The notes beneath the pieces were generated by a model. That model searched no databases. It saw only the letters and a program-made list of their open reading frames with translations, and was not told where the DNA came from. A stretch of DNA of 23,878 nt from a virus. A program made the translations under genes and the position numbers. The stretch spans positions 1-23,878 of the IMG/VR virus record IMGVR_UViG_3300031772_000284; one strand, written 5' to 3'. Shown here piece by piece: positions 867-5,628 of the stretch (positions are counted from its first letter, which is position 1; each line of letters opens with the position of its first letter).

Positions 867-1043
867 TTATTTTTTAGCTAATTTAGTAATTATTCCAGCA
901 AAGATTTCAATCACTTTATAAAACTTTGCTACCTGCTCGTTATCTTTAGGGGTTGGTGTCAGGTTAACAATGGCGATTGCCACCGCGTGGGCAGCGATAA
1001 GAACAGCAAGAAGTTGTTGAATGTGGGCAAGAAGTTGTTCCAT
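867..1043 (-). CDS. Small holin-like membrane protein (58 aa)
   Basis: A short reading frame with ATG at 1043-1041 and TAA at 869-867. Residues 1-12 are amphipathic. Residues 11-27 are strongly hydrophobic, Ala/Val/Ile/Leu-rich, and could span a membrane. An NLTPTPKD motif follows at 27-34, then an amphipathic segment (VAKFYKVIEIFAGIITKLAKK) ending in a basic tail. This plan, with the TPTPKD turn followed by a K/R-rich end, resembles small phage proteins annotated as putative holins. Holins form inner-membrane lesions that release or activate the endolysin. It lies about 1.1 kb from the endolysin gene, with a membrane-anchored coiled-coil gene between. The function is inferred from size, topology and neighbourhood. 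The frame fills an otherwise empty 200-bp gap. Confidence 0.65.
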   Translation of the reverse strand: MEQLLAHIQQLLAVLIAAHAVAIAIVNLTPTPKDNEQVAKFYKVIEIFAGIITKLAKK

Positions 1044-1074: not shown

Positions 1075-1389
1075 TTAATTTCGAGTAAAAGTACTTTTTA
1101 TTTCCATTGCTCCTCCTAATAACTCTTGCGCTTTTGATCCATCAGGTTCATGTTCAATAAATGTATATTTTGGTAAGTCAGATTTTTCCCAATCTTTTTT
1201 TATAGAGTCTATCTGTTTATCTACATCATTTAACGCTAACTCTACTTTCCAGAGCACCCAGTCTGGTTTACAATAATTTAAAATTAGTTTTACGAATTTA
1301 TTTTGCTGTAATTTCGGATATTGCTGAGAGATAAGATTAGTAAATTCGTAACTTAAAGCAAACCAAATGTTGTAATTAGAGTTTTTCAT
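1075..1389 (-). CDS. Hypothetical protein (104 aa) of the lysis region
   Basis: A 104-aa soluble-looking protein, rich in Lys, Asn, Trp and aromatic residues, with no signal peptide, lipobox or membrane segment. I do not recognise a family. Its start overlaps the end of the upstream 89-aa gene by 14 bp, so the two are probably translated from one - strand message. The message would continue into the holin-like gene. The central region (VELALNDVDKQIDSIKKDW) looks helical. A lysis-associated role is only a guess from position. Confidence 0.6.
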   Translation of the reverse strand: MKNSNYNIWFALSYEFTNLISQQYPKLQQNKFVKLILNYCKPDWVLWKVELALNDVDKQIDSIKKDWEKSDLPKYTFIEHEPDGSKAQELLGGAMEIKSTFTRN

Positions 1390-1645
1390 GGAGTTTAGTA
1401 AGTATAAGTTGATCTAATTTATCGTTAATATGGTTAAGCCTATCTTTAATTTCCGATAAACCAAGATTTAAATCAGATTTTAAAGCGTACATTTTAGGGA
1501 ATTCGTTTATTTCTTTTTCAGTATCTTCTAAACGTTTTTTTATCGAGTTAAATCGATCATTTAAAATAGTTTGTTTTTGTGAGTGATTCCAAGTAAGAAA
1601 ACCTAAGCCAGCTGTAAGCACAGCAACAATAGCTTCCACACCCAC
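1376..1645 (-). CDS. N-terminally membrane-anchored coiled-coil protein (89 aa)
   Basis: An 89-aa protein starting with GTG at 1645, with AGGA about 5 nt upstream. Residues 2-19 (GVEAIVAVLTAGLGFLTW) form one hydrophobic membrane segment. The rest is a charged helix with heptad-like spacing (NSIKKRLEDTEKEINEF, then LSEIKDRLNHINDKLDQLI), typical of a coiled coil. This topology fits an inner-membrane spanin-like or other lysis accessory protein, but no outer-membrane lipoprotein partner is visible. It is divergent from the + strand endolysin cluster, across a roughly 100-bp intergenic region holding a promoter-like sequence. Confidence 0.65.
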   Translation of the reverse strand: MGVEAIVAVLTAGLGFLTWNHSQKQTILNDRFNSIKKRLEDTEKEINEFPKMYALKSDLNLGLSEIKDRLNHINDKLDQLILTKLHEKL

Positions 1646-1747: not shown

Positions 1748-2185
1748 GTGGCCCAGTACACAAAAAACCTTGAGCTGGATTCCGTCATTAACAGCGGCAT
1801 CACGGATCCTACTCGTCGTACAGAATCTACTCACTTTGATCAACGTCGGACATTAGATTCCAGCGGCGTGGTTGTAGTTACATCTGAGAATCGTGAGTAT
1901 GCAGCTGATGGCATGTACGGTATTTCAGATGTTTATAAATTAACTGTGAACGCAACAGGTATTTTACGGGTTGATATTCGTAATCAAAATTCTTGCGGTC
2001 CTGTTGTTGTTCTTGACTCGGCTGGTACCGCCGTTTTGACTGCTAATCCATCCAAATTTAGTTCTAGGGCAACGTCCACTACTACGACTACAATCAATAC
2101 CTCAGGTACTTACTACACTTATATTCAACTCAAAGGTCGCAGCGGTTGCGAATACCGCGTGGGCATTAACGTTACCAGCACCTAA
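1748..2185 (+). CDS. Beta-rich hypothetical protein with a PPC-like C-terminal half
   Basis: A 145-aa protein starting with GTG. The N-terminal about 60 residues are polar. Residues 60-145 have the alternating strand pattern of a beta sandwich: a KLTVNATGILRVDI strand, a PVVVLDSAGTAVLTA hairpin, a Thr-rich segment, then GTYYTYIQLKG and a final YRVGINVTS strand. This order resembles bacterial pre-peptidase C-terminal (PPC)-type domains, which are non-catalytic. There is no signal peptide. It overlaps the endolysin start by 1 bp (TAATG), so the two are probably co-translated. It could be a virion decoration or cell-surface binding protein. The fold call is from pattern only. Confidence 0.6.
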   Translation: MAQYTKNLELDSVINSGITDPTRRTESTHFDQRRTLDSSGVVVVTSENREYAADGMYGISDVYKLTVNATGILRVDIRNQNSCGPVVVLDSAGTAVLTANPSKFSSRATSTTTTTINTSGTYYTYIQLKGRSGCEYRVGINVTST

Positions 2186-3441
2186 TGAATATTTCCCCTG
2201 CGGGGGTCAATTTAATAAAAAACTTTGAAGGTCTTAGGCTGACTTCGTATCAATGCGATGCCGGCGTCTGGACTGTTGGATACGGCACCACCGGTGCTCA
2301 AATTGGCCCTGATCTTACGATTACTAAAGAGCAAGCAGAAGAATTTCTTTTGCATACTTTGCAGTACTTTGAAGATTCAGTTTCAGAATTAATCAAAGTT
2401 AGACTTAATCAAAGTGAATTTGATGCTCTAGTAAGTTTTACGTACAACGTAGGTGTTGGTGCGTTTAAACAATCAACATTACTAAGGCTCCTCAACGATG
2501 GAGTTGATCGTTCTATAGTTGCATCAGAGTTATTAAAGTGGACTAAAGTTAATGGAAATGTTAACGAAGGTCTTGCAAACCGCCGTCGGCGCGAAAAAGA
2601 GTTATTTTTAGCTAAATCTGTACATCCACTCTTGGCTACTTCAATTCTGGCGCAGCGTGACACGTGGTTAAAACGTAAACCCGAACAAGCTTCTACTCTT
2701 TCTGCCGAACAAAAAGTTTTTGTTCCGAAAGGAGCTGCTCACGAGTGGCGCACAATCACGATGATTCCCGGAGAAGTTGATTACAGGATTCGACTTGAGG
2801 CTCAACCAGAGCAAGACTGGTGGTTTTACCCAAGCCATTGGAAAATTATCAATGATCTCAAATCTTTGCCCGCTTCAACGGATATTTCTTCGTCTCCCAC
2901 TCCAGTCCACGCAGATAAAGTTTTAAATATTCCTTATTATTCTCAGCGAGATAACGTTCGTGATCCTTTACGGACTTGTTTCTCTAGCTCTTGCGCCATG
3001 ATGCTTAAGGGATTAAAGCCCAACAGCATCGACAACGATGATAAATATATAGCAACTGTGTTTAAACACGGTGATACTACGTCAGCAACAGCGCAGTTGG
3101 AAGCTTTAGAAGATTACGGAGTAAGAGCTGAGTTTTGTCAAAAAGGCTCGTGGAAAGACATTGACGCTCAACTAGATAAAGGTATTGCCGTGCCCATCGG
3201 CATTCTTCATAAAGGTTCAGTTCACAACGCAACTGGAGGGGGTCACTGGATTTGCGTTATAGGACGTTCCGAAGATAATAAAAGTTATGTAGTTAACGAT
3301 CCGTTTGGTGACTTAGATCTTGTTAATGGGGGATACCTCAGCACAAACGGAGCTAAAAAGCTATACTCTAGATTGAATTTAAAACCTCGCTGGATGGTGG
3401 AGGGAGAGGGCTCTGGTTGGTTTATCAAGGTTTTAAAATGA
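2185..3441 (+). CDS. Modular endolysin: GH24 lysozyme, linker domain and C39-like peptidase
   Basis: A 418-aa protein with three parts. Residues 1-145 are a phage-type GH24 muramidase. The E-x8-(D/C)-x5-T triad is Glu15, Cys24 and Thr30, followed by VGYGTTG and the SFTYNVGVGAF helix. The Cys variant is also found in P1 Lyz. Residues 150-225 form a small beta-rich module (DTWLKRKPEQASTL, KVFVPKG, WWFYPSHW) resembling SH3-like modules of cyanobacterial C39-like proteins. Residues 245-418 look like a C39-like papain-fold peptidase: NIPYYSQRDN, Cys265 in RTCFSSSC as nucleophile, His354 in GGGHWICVIG, and Asp372 in VVNDPFGD. It would cut glycan strands and possibly peptide cross-links. There is no signal peptide, so release depends on a holin. 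At 418 aa it is much longer than single-domain GH24 lysins of about 150-180 aa. The downstream gene overlaps by 4 bp. Confidence 0.9.
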   Translation: MNISPAGVNLIKNFEGLRLTSYQCDAGVWTVGYGTTGAQIGPDLTITKEQAEEFLLHTLQYFEDSVSELIKVRLNQSEFDALVSFTYNVGVGAFKQSTLLRLLNDGVDRSIVASELLKWTKVNGNVNEGLANRRRREKELFLAKSVHPLLATSILAQRDTWLKRKPEQASTLSAEQKVFVPKGAAHEWRTITMIPGEVDYRIRLEAQPEQDWWFYPSHWKIINDLKSLPASTDISSSPTPVHADKVLNIPYYSQRDNVRDPLRTCFSSSCAMMLKGLKPNSIDNDDKYIATVFKHGDTTSATAQLEALEDYGVRAEFCQKGSWKDIDAQLDKGIAVPIGILHKGSVHNATGGGHWICVIGRSEDNKSYVVNDPFGDLDLVNGGYLSTNGAKKLYSRLNLKPRWMVEGEGSGWFIKVLK

Positions 3442-4772: not shown

Positions 4773-4952
4773 ATGCGCATTGCTGGCCCCCAAATCCTGA
4801 CCGACCCTTCGTCTATGCCTCGCACTGCGAACCGCTTTGCAGGCCGCGTGGCGAAAGAAAACCCAGGGTTGGTTGAACGCATTACTAACGCTATTATTCC
4901 TGGACACGGTGCCGCAAATCCAGGTGGACGAGAGCCTTCTGCACAAGGTTGA
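4773..4952 (+). CDS. Small hypothetical protein (59 aa)
   Basis: ATG at 4773 is 2 bp after the previous stop, and TGA ends at 4952. The protein is Pro/Gly/Arg-rich (MRIAGPQILTDPSSMPRTAN) with one amphipathic helix (NPGLVERITNAII) and a Gly/Ala-rich tail. Local GC content looks higher than in the flanking genes. Its end overlaps the apparent start of thyX in another frame. I recognise no family. Confidence 0.5.
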   Translation: MRIAGPQILTDPSSMPRTANRFAGRVAKENPGLVERITNAIIPGHGAANPGGREPSAQG

Positions 4953-5628
4953 GCTTAGTTGGATTACTCCCTACGCCGAAAGCGTAGTTGCTAAGCACGC
5001 GAGAGTATCCACAAAAAACCCTGATCGAGACGAGTATACCCGTCTCTTAGAGTACTGTATTCAACACGGACATTGGAGCGTATTTGAGCAAGTCTGCGCC
5101 TCCTTTGAGATTGTTACTACTAGAGCAATTTCACCGCAAATCTTACGGCATAGGAGCTTTACATTCCAGGAAACAAGTCAAAGGTATTGTGATCCTCTAG
5201 ATGTTCTAGAGCAAGTAGCACCTGATTGTTCTGCTTTTGAACTTCGTTCACAAGATTTAAAAAATCGTCAGAACAGCTTTCAGTTTGAGGACGATTCCAC
5301 AGAAGAATTGTTTCGCAAACGTATTGAAGAATTGTTTGAGAGTTCTCGGGAACTTTATGACGATATGCTCTCCGCTAATGTCGCGAAGGAATGTGCCCGT
5401 AATGTGCTTCTAATGTGTTCGCCTACTCGGCTGCATATGACGGGTACGCTGCGCAGTTGGATTTTCTATGTGGGCCTTCGTGGGAATGTCGGGACCCAGC
5501 AAGAGCACCGACAAATTGCTCTTGGGATCGGGGATTATTTAGCTGATTTACTGCCAGTTATTAGTACAGCAGTAATGGAAGCTGCTCATTCAGGCACTAG
5601 TGGCCTTGAAGGTTGGCAATATATTTGA
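4924..5628 (+). CDS. thyX: FAD-dependent thymidylate synthase ThyX
   Basis: ThyX makes dTMP from dUMP using methylene-tetrahydrofolate, FAD and NADPH. The signature RHR-x7-S is intact: RHRSFTFQETSQRY, at residues 75-88 counting from GTG 4924. The C-terminal GTQQEHRQIALGIGDYL matches the conserved Q-Q-E-x-R helix. Homology begins around VELSWITPYAESVVAKHARV, so upstream in-frame codons from 4837 are probably just overlap with the 59-aa gene. GTG 4924 gives 234 aa, a normal length. No clear ribosome site is seen, so a start nearer 4939, by a rare codon or by coupling to the 59-aa gene, is possible. It is the last + strand gene before the hairpin at 5646. Confidence 0.93.
   Translation: MDESLLHKVELSWITPYAESVVAKHARVSTKNPDRDEYTRLLEYCIQHGHWSVFEQVCASFEIVTTRAISPQILRHRSFTFQETSQRYCDPLDVLEQVAPDCSAFELRSQDLKNRQNSFQFEDDSTEELFRKRIEELFESSRELYDDMLSANVAKECARNVLLMCSPTRLHMTGTLRSWIFYVGLRGNVGTQQEHRQIALGIGDYLADLLPVISTAVMEAAHSGTSGLEGWQYI

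Follow-up and report, generated by a model that had tools for sequence, protein, structure and literature searches.

A predicted GH24 and C39-like two-enzyme lysin and its relatives among cyanophages

Described lysins and the modules of the window protein

The described protein closest to the lysin reported here is gp054 of Synechococcus phage S-CBS2, annotated as a "lysozyme" (ADF42410.1; 40.3% identity over 99% of the query). Like our lysin, it has a GH24 domain followed by a C39 domain and keeps the C39 catalytic residues, but it is 383 aa long and, judged by eye, has a shorter and different stretch in the place of the middle module. In the text available, a 2021 survey covering 2,182 lysins and 47 host genera describes bicatalytic lysins as confined to Gram-positive phages, with taxa chosen mainly for their clinical or epidemiological importance (PMC8223927). 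Neither "cyanobacteria" nor "synechococcus" occurs in the available portion of its main text, so cyanophages were probably outside the scope of that survey. Peptidase_C39_2 is among the domains of multicatalytic gut lysins (PMC13284279, available excerpts), and in a study that counted 14 endolysin domains in cyanophages, it appears in another table (PMC5017753, available excerpts). The GenBank record of S-CREM2 labels its copy "C39 family peptidase," though neither "C39" nor "peptidase" occurs in the available main text of PMC10665884. In the open-licence literature, to the extent that its texts were available, we found no study that characterizes the function of a C39 lysin from a cyanophage, and the S6 Table of PMC5017753 may already list C39. 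As far as we have seen, the lysin described here is a further member of a known cyanophage family that apparently lacks functional characterization in the literature, and the interest lies in that family rather than in this one copy.

The window is the whole 23,878-nucleotide stretch of DNA that was analyzed (IMG/VR virus record IMGVR_UViG_3300031772_000284). A sequence-only reading had proposed that a plus-strand ORF of 418 aa at 2185-3441 encodes a three-module endolysin (GH24 muramidase, SH3-like module, and C39-like peptidase), with E15, C24, and T30 as the GH24 triad and C265, H354, and D372 as a papain-like set. The ORF was exact, and all six residues lie at the positions given. The gene, its parts, and the neighboring genes are as follows.

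2185..3441, plus strand: predicted bicatalytic lysin gene, 418 aa, stop included (Pfam, PHROG, S-CBS2 relative)
2218..2595, plus strand: GH24 muramidase domain, residues 12-137 (Pfam, conservation, fold)
2227-2229, 2254-2256, and 2272-2274, plus strand: E15, C24, and T30, residues at the GH24 catalytic positions (alignment)
2638..2853, plus strand: middle beta-strand module, residues about 152-223 (AF2 models, profile conservation)
2857..2910, plus strand: low-confidence flexible linker, residues 225-242 (AF2 pLDDT under 50)
2923..3438, plus strand: C39-like papain-fold peptidase domain, Pfam part at 2923-3303 (Pfam, conservation, fold)
2944-2946, 2977-2979, 3244-3246, and 3298-3300, plus strand: Q254, C265, H354, and D372 of the C39-like domain (alignments)
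1748..2185, plus strand: 145-aa protein (weak PPC match under the Pfam cut-off; gene order conserved in relatives)
867..1043, minus strand: 58-aa protein containing a single hydrophobic segment, candidate small membrane protein for lysis, putative holin (hydropathy, kept order)
1376..1645, minus strand: 89-aa protein with an N-terminal hydrophobic segment, candidate spanin-like protein (PHROG, hydropathy)

A Pfam scan of the 418-aa protein returned Phage_lysozyme at residues 12-137 (PF00959, E 5e-43, profile 1-125 of 125) and Peptidase_C39_2 at residues 247-373 (PF13529, E 1.6e-7, 32.4 bits with the cut-off at 24, profile 1-142 of 143), with no match in the middle; both enzyme domains named by the sequence-only reading were recovered beyond chance. 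A BtrH_N match over the C39 part was sub-threshold. The top PHROG matches were endolysin families, namely phrog_10051 (E 1.8e-62; residues 209-416, the C-terminal half only) and phrog_7 (E 2.7e-61; residues 1-367), whose names reflect member annotations rather than assayed function. Hydropathy indicated no transmembrane segment in the lysin (highest 19-residue mean 0.94). The full-length AF2 model had a pLDDT of 88.4 and a pTM of 0.46, the latter meaning that the domains are well modeled while their mutual arrangement is not; a second model, of residues 145-418, had a pLDDT of 89.5 and a pTM of 0.66. These matches and models support the assignment of the protein as a predicted GH24 and C39-like lysin.

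The GH24 catalytic set is Glu, Asp or Cys, and Thr; the sequence-only reading named its Glu-Cys-Thr form. In an alignment of 33 of the 47 full-length GH24-C39 rows (the window and 46 others; startless, edge-cut, or identical loci had been dropped earlier), Glu15 was invariant (33/33), position 24 was Cys in 16 rows and Asp in 17, and position 30 was Thr in 32 and Ser in one. The GH24 part of the AF2 model matched the solved muramidase 9kbs_A (Z 25.1, rmsd 1.0, 142 aligned). As judged from the alignment, the E-C-T site of the N-terminal GH24 domain is complete, and muramidase activity is predicted.

The middle module is real and conserved: it spans approximately 75 residues, consists of beta strands in both AF2 models, and occurs in 20 of the same 33 rows (its profile matched 21, one of which was discounted by eye as an unrelated stretch). 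Pfam gave no match for the window's module at E ≤5, a PDB sequence search with the module's profile gave no credible match, and SH3 or other wall-binding folds were absent from the fold-match lists, an absence that carries no weight, the module being barely covered by those searches. The three-module layout proposed earlier holds for the GH24 domain, the C39-like domain, and a conserved module between them, whereas the SH3 label was not confirmed, and an SH3-like nature is a guess. The module is probably a wall-binding or spacer module, of which the wall-binding role is likewise guesswork. A match of residues 119-227 to RppH (Nudix; PDB E 0.0035, NCBIfam E 0.13 and 0.17) was rejected as chance, the stretch being the end of the GH24 domain plus the middle module. 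Among cyanobacterial genome contigs, L233 and L249 each encode the module, a GH19-like domain, and C39 in one protein (GH19-like by an in-house profile; L233 is below the Pfam cut-off and L249 is without a Pfam hit), and L238 has two adjacent ORFs that each contain the module; at a further locus (L176), the module is combined with C39. Because L233, L249, and L238 encode the same middle module, host and phage may have wall-lysis modules in common.

The C39-like domain and its possible substrate

Residues Gln254, Cys265, His354, and Asp372 of the C39-like domain presumably form the papain-like catalytic set sought for Peptidase_C39_2. All four were invariant in the 18 rows of an alignment of the window with 17 of the 18 phages examined (S-ShM2 was left out) and in the 33 full-length rows. 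S-ShM2 also retains the set, as seen in a larger alignment of 174 C39 rows. In a third alignment, comprising 82 of 156 candidate C39 rows, the four residues and His342 were invariant (82/82). Across the 174-row set, His354 and Asp372 were present in all rows and Gln254 and Cys265 in 173, the sole exception being an ORF cut before those two positions; His342 was kept in 171. Cys270 (2992-2994, in the motif CFSSSC) was kept in 81/82 and 167/174 rows of these two alignments, with Met in S-CBS2.

Papain-like enzymes usually have their Cys at the start of a helix, their His in a strand, and their Asp after a strand. The AF2 models show this order: a helix begins with Cys265, a strand contains His354, and Asp372 comes after a strand. 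Structure prediction, which the sequence-only reading had put forward as a check, also yielded matches of the C39 part to PeiR and C39 peptidases at Z of about 15-16. The closest were PeiR (8z4h; Z 15.9, rmsd 3.1, 144 aligned, 17% identity over the aligned part), a C39-like structure (3erv; Z 15.8, rmsd 3.1, 154 aligned), a double-glycine C39-type protease domain (6mpz; Z 15.4), and ComA (3k8u; Z 15.1), with staphopains at Z 12.7-13.7 and cathepsins at Z about 12. Both the fold match and the modeled secondary-structure elements in which the triad residues fall are consistent with a papain-like site. The window lysin scores modestly against the C39 Pfam profile, and leader peptidases are among the papain-fold relatives, as are other cysteine enzymes. 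Two matches of the C39 profile to de novo TIM barrels (E 4.4e-7 and E 7.3e-5) were rejected, their score being summed over four individually weak repeats.

Lysin domains with a papain fold can be amidases, as in the CHAP and Amidase_5 families (PMC8586454, available text), and the best PDB sequence match of the C39 part is 9jdd, a Bacteroides T6SS effector domain titled "Peptidase C39-like" (E 5.6e-5). Nonetheless, PeiR and C39 domains, the highest-ranking matches in the fold search, are peptidases, and we consider it unlikely that the domain is a cysteine amidase cutting MurNAc-L-Ala instead of an endopeptidase of stem or cross-link peptides.

Partner domains, distribution, and gene neighborhood

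A tblastn search with the whole lysin matched 2936 phage records, three with matches spanning 80% or more of the query; most of these matches are probably explained by GH24 alone. With the C39 part alone, 105 phage records were matched, all of them named Synechococcus phage (92) or Cyanophage (13). We examined 18 phages, among the matches listed (60 of the 105 C39 phage records), and the tailed-virus groups found among the C39 phage records examined were Autographiviridae, Kyanoviridae, and unassigned Caudoviricetes. Partners within the same protein were arranged as GH24-C39 in two phages, C39-GH24 in two, C39-GH19-like in two, GH73-C39 in four, and C39-GH73 in one, where S-ShM2 was assigned by in-house profiles only. 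In neighboring genes, the C39 gene adjoins a GH24 gene in four phages and a GH19-like gene in one (the neighbors in S-PM2 and S-CAM7 were also assigned by in-house profiles only). The GH19-like calls, fused or neighboring, were below the Pfam cut-off of 25.5 (S-B68, 16.6 bits; S-CREM2, 18.7 bits) or without a Pfam GH19 hit (S-N03), and the in-house GH19 profile was built from two of the counted phages. A recognized glycosidase is therefore fused to or adjoins C39 in 16 of the 18 phages examined, and no recognized partner was present in the stretch fetched for the other two. The sequence-only reading had called the pairing of glycan and possible peptide cutting uncommon in phages of Gram-negative-type hosts; this agrees with PMC8223927 in its available text (mainly clinical taxa), but the C39 part is widespread within cyanophages.

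This association with glycosidases bears on whether the C39-like domain acts on the wall at all. It might spare peptidoglycan and serve instead as an accessory module for wall binding or as a protease acting on proteins of the phage or its host, and several of its fold relatives (ComA, staphopain, AvrRpt2, and cathepsins) do act on ordinary proteins or peptides. The frequency of fused or adjoining glycosidases argues against such a role, the conserved Cys-His-Asp speaks against pure binding, and we regard this explanation as quite improbable. A peptidoglycan-directed peptidase is the reading that we retain.

C39 was fused to GH24 in 42 and to GH73 in eight of 81 IMG/VR ORFs (best 80 of 582), and a same-ORF partner was not recognized in 31 (one with an uncounted partial match to the GH19 profile). 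Among GTDB loci (best 80 of 125), 71 were assigned to Cyanobacteriota; mis-binned phage DNA is a possible source of the other nine (one without a phylum), because all nine are titled MAG. Several C39 or GH24-C39 genes were found in each of two assemblies of freshwater picocyanobacteria, Cyanobium sp. Cruz-8D1 (five loci) and Cyanobium sp. FGCU6 (six loci), with prophage remnants or autolysins among the possibilities for these C39 genes. A GH24 lysin of Nodularia phage kac65v151 (2501-3754 of its locus) has a weak YkuD match (E 0.003, below the cut-off) in the place of C39 and may represent a further cyanophage lysin with two enzymes.

Partner changes were traced on a quickly built tree of 174 C39 domains. 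The label (seven states) required 34 changes, compared with a minimum of 6 and a shuffled mean of 69.3, and 15 changes were counted among the 84 rows with a recognized partner; 53 of the 171 inner branches were poorly supported, which may inflate the change count. As reconstructed from these sequences, the partner label is clustered on the tree yet changed many times.

Within the window, the stop codon of the 145-aa ORF shares nucleotides with the start codon of the lysin gene (TAATG), and the phage collection contained no match to the 145-aa product at E ≤0.01. Minus-strand ORFs of 58, 104, and 89 aa lie beside the lysin at 867-1645. The 89-aa protein had "lipoprotein" as its best PHROG match (E 3.3e-6) and a weak match to an Rz-like spanin (E 0.018), and the three ORFs are a candidate divergent lysis accessory cassette (holin, spanin). 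In a comparison of gene order across seven loci (L001, L002, L094, L095, L097, L106, and L162), the 145-aa protein was kept in 7/7 and each of the three minus-strand ORFs in 6/7: L001 ends inside the 58-aa ORF, L095 showed no 104-aa ORF, and L106 showed no 89-aa ORF. Promoter-like sites between 800 and 5800 were at chance level (10 found vs 9.8 expected), and eight terminator-like sites were found there vs 4.3 expected (sd 2.1). Genes for S-adenosylmethionine decarboxylase and ThyX thymidylate synthase, at 61-438 and 4837-5628 on the plus strand, are likely auxiliary metabolic genes.

The gene neighborhood also bears on whether the protein could be a virion-associated lysin used for entry rather than an endolysin. 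The C39 and GH24 parts of S-ShM2 lie inside a reading frame of >1100 aa that is perhaps virion-associated, and the S-CBS2 relative adjoins structural-type genes. The window protein, however, has lysin-like modules only and adjoins ORFs with hydrophobic segments; in addition, GH24 is present in one copy in eight of the nine virus records of the window's group (the window's included) and in two copies in the remaining one, although these records may be fragments. We give the virion-associated alternative only a slight chance and continue with the endolysin reading. C39 is single-copy in all nine records.

Regarding the host, psbA (photosystem reaction-centre family PF00124), sought as a cyanobacterial host marker, was found in none of the nine virus records, so we infer the host from homology alone; it is probably a cyanobacterium. 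The best-ranked phage record was a Pseudanabaena phage for the DNA polymerase (27.9%; most matching records were phages of other hosts), S-EIVl for the primase (30.3%), and S-CBS2 for the lysin.

Proposed role and comparison with known systems

We consider it likely, on the basis of sequence and model evidence, that the window protein is a bicatalytic endolysin of a cyanophage that would cut both glycan strands and peptides, the two activities being predicted. Late in infection, the lysin would cross the inner membrane through a holin, a route that we propose because it has no transmembrane segment of its own. In the glycan strands, the GH24 domain would then cut between MurNAc and GlcNAc, and the target of the C39 cysteine enzyme would be the peptide part of the peptidoglycan, with the stem or the cross-link as the likeliest site. 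Together, these two types of cleavage would breach the rather thick sacculus of cyanobacteria. Within the cyanophage lysis toolkit, C39 appears to be the element that stays constant, with the glycosidase partner having been exchanged repeatedly.

A broader proposal, offered tentatively and as possible but short of probable, is that a cyanophage-specific C39 peptidase is shared by several tailed-virus groups with GH24, GH73, and GH19-like partners swapped around, and that it makes a PeiR-like cross-link cut in answer to unusually thick diderm peptidoglycan. A tie between a two-activity lysin and thick cyanobacterial peptidoglycan, also suggested by the sequence-only reading, is plausible; peptidoglycan layers of 14-18 nm are described for three filamentous cyanobacterial species (PMC9326267, available text). 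If both activities are real, two-enzyme lysins in phages of diderm cyanobacteria would break the Gram-positive-only rule. Bicatalytic lysins would then be common for one group of diderm hosts. This would also suggest that two activities are selected for by the thickness or cross-linking of the wall rather than by Gram type. The C39 part may also help to recognize cyanophage contigs.

Among the known cyanophage lysins compared, those of S-N03, ACG-2014f, S-CBP3, PSS2, and S-PM2 have the same C39 domain as the window protein (42-56% identity) but differ in their partners: GH19-like at the C-terminus in S-N03, GH24 at the C-terminus in ACG-2014f, GH73 at the C-terminus in S-CBP3 and at the N-terminus in PSS2, and GH24 in a neighboring gene in S-PM2. 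ORF123 of PaV-LD, an endopeptidase tested in Synechocystis, is a cyanophage lysis peptidase, as the window protein is predicted to be, but it has an M23 family domain and a transmembrane region rather than a fused cysteine enzyme (PMC9096620, available text). Pei enzymes cut an isopeptide wall linker by means of a C-H-D triad, and PeiW and PeiP are of prophage origin (PMC2989375, available text). The window protein resembles PeiW and PeiP in its C-H-D triad and PeiR in the fold of its catalytic domain, although its C39 domain is not classed as Pei; PDB sequence searches with the C39 part and with its profile, covering PDB chains only, listed no Pei enzyme up to E 10. Unlike the window protein, Pei enzymes have archaeal pseudomurein as their substrate, and PeiW and PeiP carry N-terminal pseudomurein-binding repeats.
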